Source: Tabrizicola soli (lineage in GTDB: Bacteria > Pseudomonadota > Alphaproteobacteria > Rhodobacterales > Rhodobacteraceae). Taken from it: a stretch of DNA of 64,000 bases. Position numbers and translations under genes: made by a program. Under the pieces are notes generated by a model, which was not told the DNA's origin, did no database searches, and was given only the letters and a program-made list of their open reading frames with translations. The stretch lies in assembly GCF_015999335.1 (NCBI RefSeq), contig NZ_JAEACP010000012.1, positions 62,001 through 126,000 on the forward strand, read 5' to 3'. Positions 4,158 through 38,938 of the stretch are shown here, one piece after another (positions within the stretch are counted from its first letter, which is position 1; each line of letters begins with the position of its first letter).

Positions 4158-4165
4158 CGGCTTTC

Positions 4166-4180
4166 GCTGCGATGCGGCAT
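4166..4180 (+). promoter_or_regulatory. TGC-rich motif upstream of mcl2
   Basis: GCTGCGATGCGGCAT. The 14-mer GCTGCGATGCGGCA recurs exactly upstream of ccr (20229-20242). A related sequence lies upstream of ecm on the minus strand, and ATGCGGCATT lies upstream of sdhC. The motif ends 66 nt before the mcl2 start codon. Candidate site for a shared regulator of the ethylmalonyl-CoA pathway. Confidence 0.5.
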
Positions 4181-4217: not shown

Positions 4218-4236
4218 AGCGCAAGAATCTTGCGCT
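4218..4236. promoter_or_regulatory. 9-bp-arm inverted repeat at the mcl2 start
   Basis: AGCGCAAGA, one A, TCTTGCGCT: perfect arms of 9 bp, ending 10 nt before the GTG start and abutting the ribosome binding site. It could be an operator or an mRNA hairpin that controls translation. Confidence 0.45.
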
Positions 4237-4246
4237 GAGGTGAGTC

Positions 4247-5107
4247 GTGTCGCGTCCCTGTCGCTCTGTCCTCTATATTCCGGCCTCGAAGGAGCGCGCG
4301 CTTGAGAAGGCGCGTGACCTGGCGGCCGATGCGATCATCTTCGACCTCGAGGATGCGGTCGCGCCCGAGGAGAAGGCCCGCGCCCGGCGGCTGCTGGTCG
4401 CGGATCTGGAGCGGGGCGGTTTCGGCCAGCGGCTGCGGATCGTGCGGGTGAACGGGCTGGACACCCCCTGGGGCGCGGCGGACATGCTGGCCTTCGCGGC
4501 GCATCCGGGGGTGGATGCGGTGCTGGTGCCCAAGGTGAACGGGCCGGAGGATCTGGACGCGGCGGCGGCGCGGGTGGCCAAGCCGCTCTGGGCGATGCTG
4601 GAGACGGCGAAGGGCTGCCTGACCCCCGGACCGATCGCGGCGCATCCGCGGCTGGAGGGGCTGGTGATGGGCACCAACGACCTTGCGCGCGAACTGGGCG
4701 CGCGGGCGCGGGCGGACCGGATGCCGCTGATGGCGGCGCTGGGGACCTGCCTCATGGCGGCGAAGGCCGCGGGCAAGCCGATCGTGGACGGGGTGTTCAA
4801 CGCCTTCAGGGACGAGGCGGGGCTGCGGGCGGAATGCGAGCAGGGCCGCGACATGGGCTTCGACGGCAAGACGCTGATCCATCCGGCGCAACTGGACATC
4901 GCGAACGAGGTCTTTGCGCCCTCGGAGGCGGAGGTGGCGCTGGCGCGGCGGCAGATCGCGGCCCATGCCGAGGCGCTGGCGCGGGGCGAGGGCGTGGCGG
5001 TGGTCGACGGCCGGATCGTGGAGAACCTGCATGTCGCGACGGCGAAGCTTCTGATCGGGAAGGCCGAGGCGATTGCGGCGCGGTCGATTGCAGTGGGGGC
5101 GGTTTAG
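4247..5107 (+). CDS. mcl2: (3S)-malyl-CoA thioesterase (CitE/HpcH family)
   Basis: 286 aa. Opens with RSVLYIPASKERALEKA and the metal-site strand DAIIFDLEDAVAPEEKARAR, and contains ETAKG, GTNDLARELG, and the C-terminal block GFDGKTLIHPAQL, all typical of the CitE-like lyase superfamily. Length and these blocks match Mcl2 of Rhodobacter sphaeroides, which hydrolyses malyl-CoA to malate and CoA after the aldol step by Mcl1. The lyase Mcl1 is a longer relative and is less likely. Start is GTG at 4247 with GAGGTGAG just upstream. First gene of a probable operon continuing to mch. A TGC-rich motif and an inverted repeat lie just upstream. Confidence 0.88.
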   Translation: MSRPCRSVLYIPASKERALEKARDLAADAIIFDLEDAVAPEEKARARRLLVADLERGGFGQRLRIVRVNGLDTPWGAADMLAFAAHPGVDAVLVPKVNGPEDLDAAAARVAKPLWAMLETAKGCLTPGPIAAHPRLEGLVMGTNDLARELGARARADRMPLMAALGTCLMAAKAAGKPIVDGVFNAFRDEAGLRAECEQGRDMGFDGKTLIHPAQLDIANEVFAPSEAEVALARRQIAAHAEALARGEGVAVVDGRIVENLHVATAKLLIGKAEAIAARSIAVGAV

Positions 5108-5699: not shown

Positions 5700-5751
5700 G
5701 CGGGGGTTTCACACCCCCGCACCCCCGTGGAGTATTTCTCCAAGAGGAAGC
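5700..5751. repeat. Rhodobacteraceae-type intergenic hairpin repeat, copy 1
   Basis: Begins with the hairpin GCGGGGGT-TTCAC-ACCCCCGC, continues ACCCCCGTGGAGTATTTCTC and ends CAAGAGGAAGC. It is almost identical to 23881-23933. It sits directly after the nnrU-like gene, inside the probable mcl2-mch operon. Confidence 0.75.
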
Positions 5752-5787: not shown

Positions 5788-5991
5788 ATGAAGCTGTATC
5801 GGTTCCTGAGCGCGGAGGACACTTCGGCCTTCTGTCACAAGGTGACGGCGGCCTTGAACAAGGGGTGGGAGCTCTATGGCTCTCCGACCTATGCCTATGA
5901 CGCGGGCGCGGGCGCGATGCGCTGCGGGCAGGCGGTGGTTAAGGATGTGGCGGGGGACTATCACCCCGAGCTGAAGCTGGGGGAGCAATGA
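5788..5991 (+). CDS. DUF1737 small protein, 67 aa
   Basis: MKLYRFLSAEDTSAFCHKV opening, then LNKGWELYGSPTYAYD, which is the conserved core of the DUF1737 family of small cytoplasmic proteins of unknown function. Its length is that of the bare domain. The ATG at 5788 lies in an A/G-rich context (GGGGGAAG) and its stop overlaps the mch start by ATGA, indicating translational coupling with mch. The Gly-Trp-Glu-Leu-x-Gly motif is the most conserved part seen in such proteins. Confidence 0.8.
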   Translation: MKLYRFLSAEDTSAFCHKVTAALNKGWELYGSPTYAYDAGAGAMRCGQAVVKDVAGDYHPELKLGEQ

Positions 5992-7010
5992 AGACCAATC
6001 CGGGCCGGTTCTTCGAGGATTACAGCCTTGGCGAGGTGATCCGCCATGCGGTGCCGCGCACGGTGGGCGCGGGCGAACGGGCGCTTTACCATGCGCTTTA
6101 TCCGGCGCGGGGGGCGGTGTCTTCCTCGGACGAGTTCGCGCGCTCGGTCGGGTTGGCGGCGAGCCCGCTGGACGACCTGGTGGCCTTTCATACGGTCTTC
6201 GGCAAGACGGTGCCGGACATCAGCCTGAACGCGGTGGCGAACCTGGGCTATGCCGAGGGGCGCTGGCTGCGGCCGGTCTGGCCGGGGGACACGTTGCGCT
6301 CGGAATCCGAGGTGATCGGGTTGAAGGAGACTTCGTCGGGGACGACGGGGGTGGTCTGGGTGCGGACGCGCGGGCTGAACCAGCGCGGCGAGGCGGTGCT
6401 GGACTATGTCCGCTGGGTGCTGGTGCGCAAGCGGTGGCGCGAGGTCGAGGTGCCGGTGCATGTGCCGGAACTGGCGCCGGTGGTGGCGCCGGAGGCGCTG
6501 GTGGTGCCGGAAGGGCTGGACTTCGGCCGGCATGACTTCGGCCTGTCCGGCGAGCCGCACCGCTGGGGCGACTATGCGGTGGGCGAGGTGATCGACCATG
6601 TCGATGCGGTGACGGTCGAGGAGGCCGAGCACATGCTGGCGACGCGGCTGTGGCAGAACACCGCCAAGGTGCATTTCGACGTGACCCAGCGCGAGGATGG
6701 CAAGCGGCTGATCTATGGCGGCCATGTGATCAGCCTGGCGCGCAGCCTGTCGTTCAACGGCCTGGCCAATGCGCATTTCATCGCCGGCTTGAACGCGGGC
6801 GCGCATGTGAACCCCTGTTTCGCGGGCGATACGGTGCGGGCCTGGTCCGAGGTGCTGGACCGCGCCGAGACCGCGGCGCCCTCGGTCGGCGCGCTGCGGC
6901 TGCGGCTGGTGGCGACGCGGGGCGCGGCCGGGGAATTGCGGGGCGCGGACGGGAAATACCTGCCCGAGGTGCTGCTGGATCTGGATTACTGGGCGTTGCT
7001 GCCGCGCTGA
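5988..7010 (+). CDS. mch: Mesaconyl-CoA hydratase (MaoC-like)
   Basis: 340 aa. Two hot-dog-fold halves: the first opens FFEDYSLGEVIRHAVPRTV (residues 8-26), the second around residue 190 with RWGDYAVGEVIDHVDAVTV. IYGGHVISLARSLSFNGL carries the hydratase-2-like segment and HVNPCFAGDTVRAWSEV the second conserved block. This length and double-domain arrangement match mesaconyl-C1-CoA hydratase (beta-methylmalyl-CoA dehydratase), the ethylmalonyl-CoA pathway enzyme between methylsuccinyl-CoA dehydrogenase and the malyl-CoA lyase. It overlaps the DUF1737 stop by 4 nt and lies in the mcl2 operon. The sdh operon follows after 214 nt. Confidence 0.92.
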   Translation: MKTNPGRFFEDYSLGEVIRHAVPRTVGAGERALYHALYPARGAVSSSDEFARSVGLAASPLDDLVAFHTVFGKTVPDISLNAVANLGYAEGRWLRPVWPGDTLRSESEVIGLKETSSGTTGVVWVRTRGLNQRGEAVLDYVRWVLVRKRWREVEVPVHVPELAPVVAPEALVVPEGLDFGRHDFGLSGEPHRWGDYAVGEVIDHVDAVTVEEAEHMLATRLWQNTAKVHFDVTQREDGKRLIYGGHVISLARSLSFNGLANAHFIAGLNAGAHVNPCFAGDTVRAWSEVLDRAETAAPSVGALRLRLVATRGAAGELRGADGKYLPEVLLDLDYWALLPR

Positions 7011-15978: not shown

Positions 15979-17946
15979 CTATTCGGCCGCGACCGCCTCG
16001 GGATCGGCCAGCGCCACCAGGTCCAGCATGATCCGGTTCAACTGGAAGTCCTTCGGCGTATAGACCCGGGCCACGCCCATGGCCTGCAGGGTCCTTGCGT
16101 CATCCTCGGGGATGATGCCGCCGACGACCAGCGGCGTCCGCGAGAGACCCGCCGCCCGCATCCGCTCCAGCGTCTCGCCGATCAGCGGCAGGTGGCTGCC
16201 GGAGAGGATCGACAGGCCGATCACGTCGGGGCGTCTTTCGGCGGCGGCGGCGACGATCTCGTCGGGCGTCAGGCGGATGCCGTCATAGGTGATCTCCATG
16301 CCGCAGTCGCGGGCGCGGGCGGCGATCTGCTCGGCGCCGTTGGAATGGCCGTCGAGGCCGGGCTTGCCGAGGAGAAGGCGCATGGGGCGGCCGAGTTTCG
16401 TCGCGACCTGCGCCACGGCATCGCGGACCGGCTCCAGCCCCTCGGTGCGGTTGGAGGGGTGTTGGGAGACGCCCGTCGGCGCGCGGTATTCGCCGTAGAG
16501 CGCGCGCATCGCGCCGCCCCATTCGCCGGTGGTGACGCCGGCGCGGGCCGCAGCGATGGAGGCGGGCATGATGTTTTCGCCGGTCTGGGCGGCCTTGCGC
16601 AGGGCTGCGAGGGCTTCGGCGACCTTCTGCGGGTCGCGTTGCGCGCGCCAGTCGGCGAGGCGGGCGCATTGGTCGGCCTCGGCCCTGGGATCGGCCTGCA
16701 TGATCGCGCCGTCGCCGGTGGCGAGGGGGGAGGGTTCGGTGGTGGTGAACCTGTTGACGCCGACGACGGTGGTTTCGCCGGATTCGATGCGGGCCAGGCG
16801 TTCGGCGTTTGCCTCGACCAGGCGGGATTTCATATAGGCGATGGCGGCGACCGCGCCTCCCATCGCGTCGATATGGGCAAGTTCCTCAAGGGCTCCGGCC
16901 TTCAGCGCGTCGACCTTGCGGTCCACGGCCGGGTTGCCGTCGAAGAGATCGTCGTATTCCAGAAGGTCGGTCTCATAGGCCAGAATCTGCTGCATCCGCA
17001 GCGACCATTGCTGGTCGAAGGGGCGCGGCAGGCCGAGCGCCTCGTTCCAGGCCGGAAGCTGGACGGCGCGGGCCCGGGCGTTTTTGGACAGGGTGACGGC
17101 CAGCATTTCCAGGAGGATGCGGTAGACGTTGTTCTCTGGCTGCTGTTCGGTGAGGCCGAGGGAGTTGACCTGAACGCCATAGCGGAAGCGGCGGAAGCGG
17201 GCGTCGGCGATGCCGTAACGGGTTTCCAGAAGCTCGTCCCAGAGCGCGGTGAAGGCGCGCATCTTGCACAGCTCGGTCACGAAGCGGATGCCGGCATTGA
17301 CGAAAAACGACATTCTGCCGGCCATGGCGGGGAAATCCCCGGCCGGGACTTTCACTTTCAGATCATCCAGCACCGCGCAGGCGGTGGCGAGCGCGAAGGC
17401 CAGTTCCTGCTCCGGCGTGGCCCCGGCTTCCTGCAGGTGGTAGGAACAGACGTTCATCGGGTTCCACTTCGGCAGGTGCCTGCCGGTATAGGCCGCGACA
17501 TCGGTGATCAGGCGCAAGGAGGGCTGCGGCGGCAGGATGTAGGTGCCGCGGCTGAGGTATTCCTTGATGATGTCGTTCTGGACCGTGCCCTGGAGTTTGG
17601 CGACATCGGCCCCCTGCTCCTCGGCCACGGCGATATAGAGCGCCAGGAGCCAGGGGGCGGTGGCGTTGATCGTCATCGAGGTGTTCATCTGTTCCAGCGG
17701 GATCTCCGCGAACAGCGCACGCATGTCGCCGAGATGCGCGACGGGGACGCCGACCTTGCCGACCTCGCCGCGCGAGCGGGGGTCGTCGCTGTCATAGCCG
17801 GTCTGCGTCGGCAGGTCGAAGGCGACCGACAACCCGGTCTGCCCCTTGGCCAGGTTGGTGCGGTAAAGCGCGTTCGAGGCCGCGGCGGTGGAATGGCCGG
17901 CGTAGGTGCGGAAGAGCCAGGGGGCGTCTTTGGCGGGCGGAGTCAT
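15979..17946 (-). CDS. ecm: (2R)-ethylmalonyl-CoA mutase
   Basis: 655 aa adenosylcobalamin mutase converting ethylmalonyl-CoA to methylsuccinyl-CoA. The catalytic TIM-barrel half contains LFRTYAGHSTAAASNALYR, LSVAFDLPTQTGYDSDD, MNTSMTINATAPWLLALY and GTVQNDIIKEY. The C-terminal B12 domain has the base-off motif KPGLDGHSNGAEQ (DxHxxG) and LSILSGSH. Near-identical length and pattern to Ecm of R. sphaeroides; methylmalonyl-CoA mutase is longer (about 710 aa) and has a different substrate region. ATG at 17946 follows GAAGG; a TTG 18 nt upstream is less likely. A TGC-rich motif lies 67 nt upstream. Confidence 0.95.
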   Translation of the reverse strand: MTPPAKDAPWLFRTYAGHSTAAASNALYRTNLAKGQTGLSVAFDLPTQTGYDSDDPRSRGEVGKVGVPVAHLGDMRALFAEIPLEQMNTSMTINATAPWLLALYIAVAEEQGADVAKLQGTVQNDIIKEYLSRGTYILPPQPSLRLITDVAAYTGRHLPKWNPMNVCSYHLQEAGATPEQELAFALATACAVLDDLKVKVPAGDFPAMAGRMSFFVNAGIRFVTELCKMRAFTALWDELLETRYGIADARFRRFRYGVQVNSLGLTEQQPENNVYRILLEMLAVTLSKNARARAVQLPAWNEALGLPRPFDQQWSLRMQQILAYETDLLEYDDLFDGNPAVDRKVDALKAGALEELAHIDAMGGAVAAIAYMKSRLVEANAERLARIESGETTVVGVNRFTTTEPSPLATGDGAIMQADPRAEADQCARLADWRAQRDPQKVAEALAALRKAAQTGENIMPASIAAARAGVTTGEWGGAMRALYGEYRAPTGVSQHPSNRTEGLEPVRDAVAQVATKLGRPMRLLLGKPGLDGHSNGAEQIAARARDCGMEITYDGIRLTPDEIVAAAAERRPDVIGLSILSGSHLPLIGETLERMRAAGLSRTPLVVGGIIPEDDARTLQAMGVARVYTPKDFQLNRIMLDLVALADPEAVAAE

Positions 17947-18012: not shown

Positions 18013-18025
18013 ATGCTGCACTGCA
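18013..18025 (-). promoter_or_regulatory. TGC-rich motif upstream of ecm
   Basis: On the minus strand it reads TGCAGTGCAGCAT, matching TGCGATGCGGCAT upstream of mcl2 at 10 of 13 positions. The end nearest the gene lies 66 nt before the ecm start codon, the same distance as at mcl2. Confidence 0.45.
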
Positions 18026-18071
18026 AAAAGATCGGGTCGGAACCTGGTGGATTCCGGCCCGGAAGGCGGTC

Positions 18072-20223: not shown

Positions 20224-20228
20224 CCGCT

Positions 20229-20243
20229 GCTGCGATGCGGCAG
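20229..20243 (+). promoter_or_regulatory. TGC-rich motif upstream of ccr
   Basis: GCTGCGATGCGGCAG; the first 14 bases are identical to 4166-4179 upstream of mcl2. It is followed by an A/T-rich stretch (ATAAAATTACAAGAAATGG) that probably holds the ccr promoter. The distance to the TTG start is 112 nt. Confidence 0.5.
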
Positions 20244-20355
20244 ACATAAAATTACAAGAAATGGCGATCATACTATTGCATTGTTGCGCGATGAAAGTTT
20301 AGCTGCAGGAAACGGCGCGGCGATTCTGCGGCGCGGCATCTGGCTGGAGGCTCTG

Positions 20356-21648
20356 TTGGCTTTGGATACGCAAAACGCACCCGTGATCTACGACGCTCCG
20401 AAGAAGGACCTGTACGAACTGGGCGAGATGCCGCCGCTCGGCCATGTGCCGGCGAAGATGTATGCCTGGGCGATCCGCCGCGACCGGCATGGGCCGCCCG
20501 AGCAGGCGATGGTGCAGGAGGTCGTCGACACCTGGAAGATCGACAGCCACGAGGTGCTGGTCCTGGTGATGGCGGCAGGCGTCAACTACAACGGGGTCTG
20601 GGCCGGACTGGGCCAGCCGATTTCCCCCTTCGACGGGCACAAGGCGGCCTATCACATCGCGGGTTCGGATGCCGCGGGCATCGTCTGGGCGGTCGGCGAC
20701 AAGGTGAAGCGCTGGAAGGTCGGCGACGAGGTGGTGATCCACTGCAACCAGGACGACGGTGACGACGAGGAGTGCAACGGCGGCGACCCGATGTTCTCGC
20801 CCTCCCAGCGGATCTGGGGCTACGAGACACCGGACGGCAGCTTCAGCCAGTTCACCCGGGTGCAGGCGCAGCAGCTGATGCCACGGCCGCGCCACCTGAC
20901 CTGGGAGGAATCGGCCTGCTACACCCTGACGCTGGCGACGGCCTACCGGATGCTCTTCGGCCATGCGCCGCACGATTTGCAACCGGGGCAGAACGTGCTG
21001 GTCTGGGGGGCGTCGGGAGGCCTTGGCTCCTATGCGATCCAGCTGATCAACACGGCGGGGGCGAATGCGATCGGGGTGATCAGCGACGAATCCAAGCGAG
21101 ATTTCGTGATGTCGCTGGGCGCCAAGGGCGTGATCAACCGCAACGAGTTCAAGTGCTGGGGGCAACTGCCGAAGGTGAACTCCGAAGAATACAACGCCTG
21201 GCTGAAGGAGGCGCGCCGCTTCGGCAAGGCGATCTGGGACATCACCGGCAAGGGCGTGAACGTCGACATGGTGTTCGAGCATCCGGGCGAGGCGACCTTC
21301 CCGGTCTCGTCGCTGGTCTGCAAGAAAGGCGGCATGGTGGTGATCTGCGCCGGGACCAGCGGATTCAACTGCACCTTCGACGTGCGCTACATGTGGATGC
21401 ACCAGAAGCGTCTGCAGGGCAGCCATTTCGCGCATCTGAAGCAGGCGGCGGCGGCCAACAAGCTGATGTGCGAGCGCAGGCTCGACCCCTGCATGTCCGA
21501 GGTCTTCCCCTGGGCCGAGATCCCGCGCGCCCATACGCTGATGTGGAAGAACCAGCACAAGCCCGGCAACATGGCGGTGCTGGTGCAGGCGCCGCGTACC
21601 GGCCTTCGGACCTTTGCGGACACGCTGGAGGCGAGTGAGGGCCGTTGA
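20356..21648 (+). CDS. ccr: Crotonyl-CoA carboxylase/reductase
   Basis: 430 aa, NADPH-dependent reductive carboxylation of crotonyl-CoA to (2S)-ethylmalonyl-CoA, the defining step of the ethylmalonyl-CoA pathway. MDR-family fold: AGVNYNGVWAGLG, CNQDDGDDEECNGGDPMFS, the nucleotide motif VWGASGGLGSYAIQL and CAGTSGFNCTFDVRYMWMHQ. The N-terminus aligns with Rhodobacter Ccr (ALDxQ...YDAPKKDLYE) only if translation starts at TTG 20356, which has GGAGG 5 nt upstream; earlier frames lack homology. Lies 132 nt after the acyltransferase and has its own TGC-rich motif upstream. Confidence 0.96.
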   Translation: MALDTQNAPVIYDAPKKDLYELGEMPPLGHVPAKMYAWAIRRDRHGPPEQAMVQEVVDTWKIDSHEVLVLVMAAGVNYNGVWAGLGQPISPFDGHKAAYHIAGSDAAGIVWAVGDKVKRWKVGDEVVIHCNQDDGDDEECNGGDPMFSPSQRIWGYETPDGSFSQFTRVQAQQLMPRPRHLTWEESACYTLTLATAYRMLFGHAPHDLQPGQNVLVWGASGGLGSYAIQLINTAGANAIGVISDESKRDFVMSLGAKGVINRNEFKCWGQLPKVNSEEYNAWLKEARRFGKAIWDITGKGVNVDMVFEHPGEATFPVSSLVCKKGGMVVICAGTSGFNCTFDVRYMWMHQKRLQGSHFAHLKQAAAANKLMCERRLDPCMSEVFPWAEIPRAHTLMWKNQHKPGNMAVLVQAPRTGLRTFADTLEASEGR

Positions 21649-23880: not shown

Positions 23881-23933
23881 CCGGGGGTTTCACACCCCCG
23901 GACCCCCGTGGAGTACTTGCGCCAAGAGGAAGC
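23881..23933. repeat. Rhodobacteraceae-type intergenic hairpin repeat, copy 2
   Basis: CCGGGGGT-TTCAC-ACCCCCGG hairpin, then ACCCCCGTGGAGTACTTGCG and CCAAGAGGAAGC. Nearly identical to 5700-5751 and positioned between convergent genes (RAM protein and pyrD). Confidence 0.75.
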
Positions 23934-25470: not shown

Positions 25471-26313
25471 TCAGTTGTTCTTGCCCTTGCCGTTGCCATT
25501 GCCCTGGCCGGGGTTGCTGGGATCGACGCCGTCCGGATCGTTGCCGTGGCCGTTGTCGTCGTGGCTTCCAGAGTTGTCATTGCCCTGGCCCTGGCTGCCA
25601 CCGTCGTTACCGTTACCGTTACCGTTACCGTTAGCGTTACCGTTACCGTTACCGTTACCGTTACCGTTACCGTTACCGTTACCGTTACCCTGGCCGGGGT
25701 TGCCATTGCCCTGGCCGGGGTTGCTGGGATCGACGCCGCCCGGATCGTTGCCGTGGCCATTGTCGTCATGGCTTCCCGAGTTGTCGTTGCCTTGGCCTTG
25801 GCCCTGATTGCCGTTACCGTTACCGTTACCGTTACCGTTACCGTTACCCTGGCCCGGATTGCCATTGCCTTGACCCGGATTGCTGGGATCGACGCCGCCC
25901 GGATCATTGCCGTGGCCGTTGTCGTCCTTGTCGCCGTCCGAATTGTCGGGCTCACCGCCACCCTGGCCCGGATTGCCGGGATCGACGCCGCCGGGGTCAT
26001 TGCCGTGGCCGTTGTTCCCATCGTCTGGGGACGGGTCCGGAGTCTGTTCAGGCTCCGGTTGCGGGGTGGGGTCCGGCTCCTGGGTGACGTCCTGTCCGGG
26101 CGTCGGCAGAGGATCCGGCTTGGTACCCGGTCCGACTGGCTGGCGGGAGGGCGCATTGTGGTCGCCCGAACCTTGGGCGCAATCCGACCTCATCCATCCT
26201 TCGTCATTTTTATCCTTGGTGTCGGAATAATGACACTCATTAGGACCTTTTGTTTCCGCACTGGCACTCAACGCAATCGTAACGAAAGTACACGCAAGCA
26301 GCAATTGTTTCAT
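25471..26313 (-). CDS. Secreted low-complexity (Gly-Asn)n repeat protein
   Basis: 280 aa. Sec signal peptide MKQLLLACTFVTIALSASA, then a short Cys-containing segment (NECHYSDTKDK...SDCAQ) and a Pro/Thr/Asp-rich linker. The remaining two thirds are repeats of an acidic module (DDNGHGNDPGGVDPSNPGQG, four copies with small differences) separated by pure Gly-Asn runs. Asp/Asn/Gly richness suggests calcium binding or a flexible extracellular spacer; no catalytic domain. The runs are encoded by GGTAAC hexamers, using GGT where the genome prefers GGC, a sign of recent slippage expansion. ATG has GAAAGGAAAAG upstream. Confidence 0.85.
   Translation of the reverse strand: MKQLLLACTFVTIALSASAETKGPNECHYSDTKDKNDEGWMRSDCAQGSGDHNAPSRQPVGPGTKPDPLPTPGQDVTQEPDPTPQPEPEQTPDPSPDDGNNGHGNDPGGVDPGNPGQGGGEPDNSDGDKDDNGHGNDPGGVDPSNPGQGNGNPGQGNGNGNGNGNGNGNQGQGQGNDNSGSHDDNGHGNDPGGVDPSNPGQGNGNPGQGNGNGNGNGNGNGNGNGNANGNGNGNGNDGGSQGQGNDNSGSHDDNGHGNDPDGVDPSNPGQGNGNGKGKNN
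25606..25689. repeat. GTTACC hexanucleotide tandem tract, 14 units
   Basis: Fourteen consecutive 6-bp units on the plus strand, one of them GTTAGC (giving Ala for Gly). In the minus-strand gene each unit encodes Gly-Asn and keeps frame. Confidence 0.9.
25813..25848. repeat. GTTACC hexanucleotide tandem tract, 6 units
   Basis: Six perfect units of the same hexamer as the 14-unit tract, in the same gene and frame. Confidence 0.9.
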
Positions 26314-37936: not shown

Positions 37937-38938
37937 TTGGGCATCAGCGCGCTGACCCCCCCGACCGCCGAGGATATCGTCGAGACCGTCCTCGAATTTC
38001 CCGACAACCGCTTGCTGATCGACCTTTGCGGCGAATTCGACCGCAATCTCGCCCAGATCGAGCACCAGATGGGGGTGCACATCCTGCGGCGCGGCAACCG
38101 CCTGGCAGTCATCGGCGAGAAACCGGCGCGCGAACAGGCGGCAGCCGTGCTGCGCTCGCTCTATGCCCGGCTGGAATCGGGTCGCGGCGTGGGCGCGGGC
38201 GACATCGACGGCGCGCTGCGCATGGGCCGTCCGGTCGATGCCGAAAGCGCCGAGCAGATCGAGCTCTTTTCGACCGGGATGGAGCTGCGCACCCGCAAGA
38301 AGCCGATCGAACCGCGGACCGAGGCGCAGAAGGCCTATGTCGCCAACCTGTTCCAGCATGAGCTGGGCTTCGGCATCGGCCCGGCCGGGACCGGCAAGAC
38401 CTATCTCGCCGTCGCGGTGGGGGTAACGATGTTCATCTCCGGCGCGGTCGAGAAGATCGTCCTGTCGCGCCCGGCGGTCGAGGCCGGGGAACGTCTGGGC
38501 TTCCTGCCCGGCGACATGAAGGAGAAGGTCGATCCCTACATGCAGCCGCTCTACGACGCGCTGAACGACTTCCTGCCGTCGAAGCAGGTGGAAAAGTTGA
38601 TGCAGGAAAAGCGGATCGAGATCGCGCCGCTGGCCTTCATGCGCGGCCGGACGCTGTCGAACGCCTTCATCGTGCTGGACGAGGCGCAGAATGCCACGAC
38701 CATGCAGATGAAGATGTTCCTGACCCGGCTGGGCGAGGGGTCGCGCATGGTGATCACCGGCGACCGCACCCAGGTCGACCTGCCGCGCGGCACGGCCTCG
38801 GGCCTGGCCGATGCGGAGCGGATCCTGAAGGGGGTGAAGGGCGTCAGCTTCAACTATTTCACCTCGCGCGATGTGGTGCGCCACCCGCTGGTCGGCCGGA
38901 TCATCGAGGCCTACGAGGCCGACGAAGCCGCCGGGTAG
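37937..38938 (+). CDS. phoH: PhoH-like ATPase
   Basis: 333 aa. N-terminal KH-like region (FPDNRLLIDLCGEFDRNLAQIE...MGVHILRRGN), then the P-loop domain: GIGPAGTGKTYLAVAVG (Walker A), IVLSRPAVEAGERLGFLPGD and FIVLDEAQNATTMQMKMFL (Walker B). Start assigned to TTG 37937 because GAGAAGGAG lies 7 nt upstream and the resulting length matches PhoH; the open frame extends to 37838, but that part has no homology. In many relatives ybeY follows; here a hairpin follows instead. Confidence 0.93.
   Translation: MGISALTPPTAEDIVETVLEFPDNRLLIDLCGEFDRNLAQIEHQMGVHILRRGNRLAVIGEKPAREQAAAVLRSLYARLESGRGVGAGDIDGALRMGRPVDAESAEQIELFSTGMELRTRKKPIEPRTEAQKAYVANLFQHELGFGIGPAGTGKTYLAVAVGVTMFISGAVEKIVLSRPAVEAGERLGFLPGDMKEKVDPYMQPLYDALNDFLPSKQVEKLMQEKRIEIAPLAFMRGRTLSNAFIVLDEAQNATTMQMKMFLTRLGEGSRMVITGDRTQVDLPRGTASGLADAERILKGVKGVSFNYFTSRDVVRHPLVGRIIEAYEADEAAG

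Follow-up and report, generated by a model that had tools for sequence, protein, structure and literature searches.

Four PhaR-type boxes, one before mcl2, one before ecm and two before ccr, stand in the promoters of ethylmalonyl-CoA pathway genes in the stretch of Tabrizicola soli DNA analysed here (64,000 nucleotides, hereafter the window), and the core YGCRNYGCR is present in all four (Table 1). The boxes match those of phasin promoters, are conserved in related genomes and are lost or decay in genomes that have lost PhaR and PHA synthase. We consider it probable that the motif is the PhaR box, that PhaR represses ccr, ecm and mcl2, and that PHB granules titrate PhaR away from these promoters.

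Table 1. Boxes, second promoter elements and pathway genes in the window.
Feature	Positions	Strand	Evidence
PhaR-type box before mcl2, CGCTGCGATGCGGCA	4165..4179	+	phasin matrix 17.4, rank 2 in the window
Palindrome GCGCAAGAATCTTGCGC, mcl2 promoter	4219..4235	+	EM on box-masked mcl2 upstreams
mcl2, CitE/HpcH-family lyase (name from the initial annotation)	4247..5107	+	PF03328; CitE-like model below cut-off
mch, mesaconyl-CoA hydratase, downstream of mcl2 on the same strand	5988..7010	+	PF19315, 39.6 bits (cut-off 26.5)
ecm, acyl-CoA mutase	15979..17946	-	TIGR00641 and TIGR00640 over cut-off
PhaR-type box before ecm, TTTTGCAGTGCAGCA	18014..18028	-	phasin matrix 20.7, rank 1 in the window
Distal PhaR-type box before ccr, TGCTGCGATGCGGCA, includes the reported 14-mer	20228..20242	+	exact box match
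Second conserved ccr promoter element, TTGCATTGTTGCGC	20276..20289	+	EM on box-masked ccr upstreams
Proximal PhaR-type box before ccr, TTCTGCGGCGCGGCA	20324..20338	+	exact box match; phasin matrix 14.9, rank 3 in the window
ccr, crotonyl-CoA carboxylase/reductase, TTG start	20356..21648	+	TIGR01751, 612.5 bits (cut-off 378.55); translation

Family models also support sdhCDAB in the window. We took the mutase to be ethylmalonyl-CoA mutase because it neighbours ccr and was so named in the initial annotation, and we infer that mch is co-transcribed with mcl2. Rfam families were absent from the box sites; the window contains one tRNA. Two repeats were seen elsewhere in the window. A near-identical intergenic hairpin (CGGGGGTTTCACACCCCCG, then ACCCCCGTGGAGTA) lies at 5700-5737 and 23881-23918, after two unrelated genes, and may be a genomic repeat; the copy at 5700-5737, between an NnrU-family gene and a DUF1737 gene before mch, might affect read-through from mcl2. 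Hexamer arrays, (CGTTAC)n with about 14 and 6 copies, occupy 25605-25965 and overlap a 159-bp repeat.

The link to PhaR comes from phasin promoters, and phaP is reportedly repressed by PhaR in Paracoccus denitrificans and Rhodobacter sphaeroides. The T. soli genome has one PhaR match (TIGR01848, 157.4 bits, cut-off 109.45), in a cluster with the order phaC-phaP-(GST-like gene)-phaR and two boxes before phaP; phaP itself matches the phasin family weakly (PF09361, 19.6 bits, cut-off 24.9) and owes its identification to its location between phaC and phaR. Paired boxes 26-30 bp apart were found in 28 of 31 phaR loci, and the resulting 56 sites (two of them our own), from pairs picked with a consensus, define a 21-mer phasin matrix. 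Over the 64-kb window, its three best places are the boxes of ecm, mcl2 and proximal ccr (20321-20341 for the 21-mer; scores in Table 1), followed by an intragenic place at 10.6.

Because the matrix pairs had been chosen in this way, EM motif discovery was also run on phaP promoters (27 of 30) with no consensus and with our own genome left out. It recovered TGCTGCGGTGCAGCA, whose top places in the window are ecm and both ccr boxes; counted by distinct places, mcl2 comes fifth, behind an intragenic site at 38082. The 21-mer, which has AT-rich arms, gives high scores to the ecm and mcl2 boxes, a lower one to proximal ccr and 1.0 to the distal ccr box, which is without the AT-rich flanks and reaches 17.75 in the consensus-free EM motif. 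Most pathway boxes read GCGG where phasin boxes have GCAG, the ecm box of the window being an exception; our guess is that the GCGG form may be bound more weakly and give a graded response.

The 15-mer consensus TKCTGCRNYGCRGMA, together with its line at 14 of 15 positions, was set after the phaP and ccr sites were known, and the phasin matrix and the EM motif are for this reason the less circular tests. At up to one mismatch, the consensus has eight matches at five places in the window where 1.16 matches are expected, and none of 100 shuffles reaches eight; mcl2, ecm and the two ccr sites make up four of the five places, and the fifth is again 38082, inside a gene.

The same box recurs in the rest of the genome. 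At up to one mismatch, TKCTGCRNYGCRGMA matches 66 and 60 times on the two strands, compared to 18 and 12 times for the reversed pattern, one of the matches lying between thiolase and acetoacetyl-CoA reductase genes that are phaA/phaB-like. Exact matches occur at 10 places: two each at ccr and phaP, one inside a gene (C56:92806), one across the predicted start of a ppdK-like gene, one separating a ParA-family gene from a gene that looks cold-shock-like by eye (C5:101004), and one each at a DUF3563-like gene (25.7 bits, cut-off 26.9; C6:59026), a MaoC-type gene (C9:24469) and an ATP-sulfurylase gene (C9:8446). The pattern TGCDRTGCRGCA has 27 matches (reversed pattern: 4), of which rough gene calls place 18 inside genes and nine outside; those outside include mcl2, ecm, ccr and two before phaP. 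Further TGCDRTGCRGCA matches stand 43 bp upstream of a pyruvate-carboxylase-like (pyc-like) gene and between ccoN and a Usp-family gene (C45:71587), and two are without a clear target (L003, L023). Judged by these matches, the ParA-family, DUF3563-like, ccoN/Usp, MaoC-type and ATP-sulfurylase genes are possible further PhaR targets. A whole-genome model scan scored 150 of 5038 candidates, with ecm, mcl2 and distal ccr unlisted, and is not taken as a ranking.

Conservation was assessed in three sets of upstream regions: ccr loci from the best 80 of 596 relatives, hence close relatives (81 upstreams with the window); 70 ecm upstreams with the start inside the locus, window included; and mcl2 loci from 30 of 41 genomes, our own included. 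A box with at least 14 of 15 positions is present in 80/81 ccr, 34/70 ecm and 24/30 mcl2 upstreams and in none of the reversed sequences of any set; at 13 of 15 or better, the counts are 80/81, 64/70 and 26/30, compared to 4, 3 and 1 in reversed sequences. Across the 861,541 bases of the 80 ccr loci, 80 of the 83 phasin-matrix matches scoring at least 12 fall within 250 bp before ccr or ecm. Among the mcl2 promoters, 21 of 30 (own included) carry a site scoring at least 15, at -85 to -104 (shuffles: 0.13%); only one of the nine loci below 15, that of G052, belongs to a genome known to be PhaR-less.

The proximal ccr site, overlooked in the initial annotation, is the more widely conserved of the two: it is present at 13 of 15 or better in 80/81 ccr upstreams, and together with the distal box at the same level in 26/81. 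In the 80 rows of the proximal box (selected at 13/15, for which 80 of 81 qualify), the GC steps are invariant and the base at the centre varies freely (0.13 bits); over the 20 flanking columns the mean is 0.43 bits. PhaR was found in all 49 tested genomes with ccr loci, corresponding to 49 of the 80 loci. Outside the family but within the class, boxes at 14/15 also precede ccr in three genomes (G361, G362 and G367); in G367 a single box between ecm and ccr (L291) lies upstream of both, as if common to two divergent promoters.

Upstream of the mcd candidate (L211, an acyl-CoA dehydrogenase-family protein of 554 residues, so designated from its size and family alone), no core was found in 290 bp. 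The candidate for mcl1 (L215) was chosen for its size and its resemblance to mcl2, and its upstream region shows a weak core at -71 with a matrix score of -3.6.

PhaR is present in 290 of 296 family genomes. At 14 of 15 or better, a line chosen after the fact, the ccr box is found in 27 of 31 PhaR-positive and one of nine PhaR-less genomes (Fisher 5e-5, kinship ignored). At 13/15 the numbers are 28/31 and 4/9, three of the four PhaR-less sites being sites of genus g4 with the second GC step broken, and by a phasin-matrix score of at least 10 they are 18/31 and 1/9. The exceptions at 14/15 are four PhaR-positive genomes without the box (G051, G066, G053 and G356) and one PhaR-less genome with it (G286, whose ccr is about 50% identical). 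The comparison leaves out partial or paralogous ccr (G178, G067, G057, G359, G364, G365, G369), genomes without a ccr match (G313, G360, G363, G368) and G082, which has no PhaR match and is 74% complete. As five of the nine PhaR-less genomes come from genus g4 and three of these share nearly the same broken site, the co-loss amounts to few independent events.

Within genus g4, all five PhaR-less genomes retain ccr and ecm with no intact box at either gene, and the PhaR-positive G353 has both boxes; the ecm part of this comparison, in which the box is absent from 5/5 PhaR-less genomes, covers these six genomes, as no ecm upstream was obtained from G356 or G357. In G052 and G358 the broken ccr site reads TTCTGCGCCACGGCT and has lost the second GC step, whereas the TTGCA element beside the ccr box is intact in all eight genomes of the genus, the five PhaR-less ones among them. 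G356 is PhaR-positive yet its ccr box is broken, and G352 (81% complete) and G355 (66%) could carry an undetected PhaR. The PHA synthase follows PhaR: it was matched in none of 11 PhaR-less and all six PhaR-positive genomes tested. For mcl2 the pattern is less clear, as the PhaR-less G052 has no box (-14.4), and neither do some PhaR-positive genomes, e.g. G060 and G057. PhaR or a similar protein had been suggested as the ligand in the initial annotation, and the phasin-derived motifs and the tracking of PhaR across genomes, its exceptions included, lend this suggestion good support at the level of sequence.

The box-bearing promoters of ccr and mcl2 have a second conserved element, which resembles TTGCAATGTTGCGC in the former and GCAA...TTGCGC in the latter. 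Both the element and the proximal box were found in 72 ccr upstreams, and in 70 of these the element precedes the box by 45-50 bp. The palindrome of the mcl2 promoter is a possible counterpart, and EM found an AT-rich form, GCAATTTTATT.CG, at ecm that is possibly related. The ccr element may be a -35 element or the site of another regulator.

In the mechanism that we propose, PhaR as a PHB-binding repressor would occupy two boxes in the ccr promoter and one each in the promoters of ecm and mcl2, the last probably serving mch as well. Under acetyl-CoA excess, as PHB accumulates in granules, PhaR would be drawn to the granules and off the DNA, and its release would turn on the phasin gene and the ethylmalonyl-CoA genes together; PHB would then be the signal that opens a competing route for the same intermediates. 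We infer binding of PhaR at the pathway boxes, and repression rather than activation; its titration by PHB at these promoters would follow by analogy with PhaR of other species. If the TTGCA element is a -35 element, the proximal ccr box would lie just past the transcription start, which suits a repressor. We lean, by a narrow margin of confidence, towards the broader proposal that across Alphaproteobacteria PhaR acts as a general switch for transcription of ethylmalonyl-CoA pathway genes, in which the polymer would signal the opening of a route that competes for its precursor, with strong paired phasin boxes and weaker pathway boxes allowing graded release.

The boxes might also be PhaR sites at which PhaR activates the pathway genes in the absence of PHB, so that PHB formation turns the pathway down. 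We regard this as unlikely. The motif does occur in seven PhaR-activated genes of Sinorhizobium meliloti as well, according to the sections of PMC12542648 used here, but the same sections describe it as enriched in module 1, the PhaR-repressed genes, and the phasin genes as repressed. The distance of the mcl2 box from the start, large in the 21 good loci, leaves room for an activator; the proximal ccr box, in contrast, lies about 30-68 bp before the start and downstream of TTGCA, an arrangement that would suit a repressor if TTGCA is indeed the -35 element.

Considerably less probable is that another regulator of the pathway binds the TGC motif, either RamB or another ScfR protein, or a TetR protein like CcrR. 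In Methylorubrum extorquens, an ethylmalonyl-CoA pathway gene is reportedly activated by CcrR, and deletion of RamB in P. denitrificans raises transcripts of the pathway (from the portion of PMC10370305 drawn on here). Against such a regulator, motifs derived from phasin promoters alone pick out the pathway sites, and the boxes decay along with PhaR and PHA synthase while the second ccr element persists. This second element is a better candidate than the PhaR-type box for a regulator such as RamB/ScfR or a CcrR-like protein.

The case for PhaR rests on the phasin-motif match, conservation and co-loss, and not on the exact repeat from which the initial annotation had started. The exact 14-mer GCTGCGATGCGGCA is indeed found at 4166-4179 and 20229-20242 and nowhere else in the window. 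Its rarity, which had been put forward as an argument, carries little weight because repeated 14-mers are common here: the window (68% GC) contains 487 of them, compared to 131-178 in ten second-order Markov shuffles, and with up to two mismatches GCTGCGATGCGGCA has three matches where 2.88 are expected, i.e. no enrichment. These 14-mer statistics are all that speaks for a chance repeat in GC-rich DNA, an explanation rejected by the matrix, the EM motif and the conservation counts and of practically no remaining probability.

The relative of the 14-mer at ecm is real, lies on the minus strand and shares 10 of 13 positions with the mcl2 form in a comparison by eye. The spacing of 66 nt to the start codon claimed for both genes holds for ecm (ATG 17946); for mcl2 (GTG 4247) it is 67 nt. 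A fourth motif had been reported upstream of sdhC, which we rejected as a target: the GC steps of that site are 6 apart, not 5, the core YGCRNYGCR is absent from it, and before sdhC the phasin matrix reaches at most -4.5, far from the scores of ecm, mcl2 and proximal ccr.

The closest known system is the PhaR (AniA) regulon of S. meliloti. There PhaR recognises the motif WNWD2NYGCRNYGCRNH2WNW, is sequestered by PHB, which derepresses phasin and depolymerase genes, and has targets that include pyc, ppdK and gltA (PMC12542648, in the sections used). The core YGCRNYGCR and the paired boxes before phasin genes are shared with T. soli, as are a box at ppdK and pyc as a target, which correspond to boxes at ppdK-like and pyc-like genes here; unlike in T. 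soli, where sdhC has no box, sdhC is weakly bound in S. meliloti (same source and sections). The terms ethylmalonyl, crotonyl-CoA, ccr and mcl have no occurrence in the main text of PMC12542648.

Within the same bacterial order as T. soli, a TGC-rich PhaR motif is known from P. denitrificans and R. sphaeroides, as described in passages of PMC10888616; these describe it for PHB genes, whereas here the box precedes ccr, ecm and mcl2. RamB of P. denitrificans resembles the proposed role of PhaR in linking acetyl-CoA assimilation pathways transcriptionally and altering transcripts of the ethylmalonyl-CoA pathway, but it is an ScfR-family CoA-ester sensor with two boxes and an 18-bp spacer before the glyoxylate operon (PMC10370305, in the portion drawn on). 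The main text of that paper does not contain the word PhaR, and the signal that turns the ethylmalonyl-CoA pathway down in P. denitrificans is there called yet unknown. In M. extorquens, PhaR takes part in acetyl-CoA partitioning (as cited in PMC6520949); the main text of PMC6520949, on the transcriptome of a phaR mutant, names no change of ccr, and neither "ccr" nor "crotonyl" occurs in it. Among the matches listed in a search of the open-licence literature, no paper ties PhaR to ccr, ecm or mcl promoters.

That PhaR regulates genes of central carbon metabolism is known, and what is new here is the ethylmalonyl-CoA target set, for which the predicted sites make a strong computational case. 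If true, the link would give the partly open control of the pathway a specific protein, defined sites and PHB as its physical signal; it could explain the coupling of storage with acetate assimilation and would be relevant to bioplastic and acetate-based production. Set beside S. meliloti, where PHB releases phasin and depolymerase genes from PhaR, the T. soli boxes suggest that the bioplastic (PHB) store also helps to switch on the pathway used for growth on acetate.
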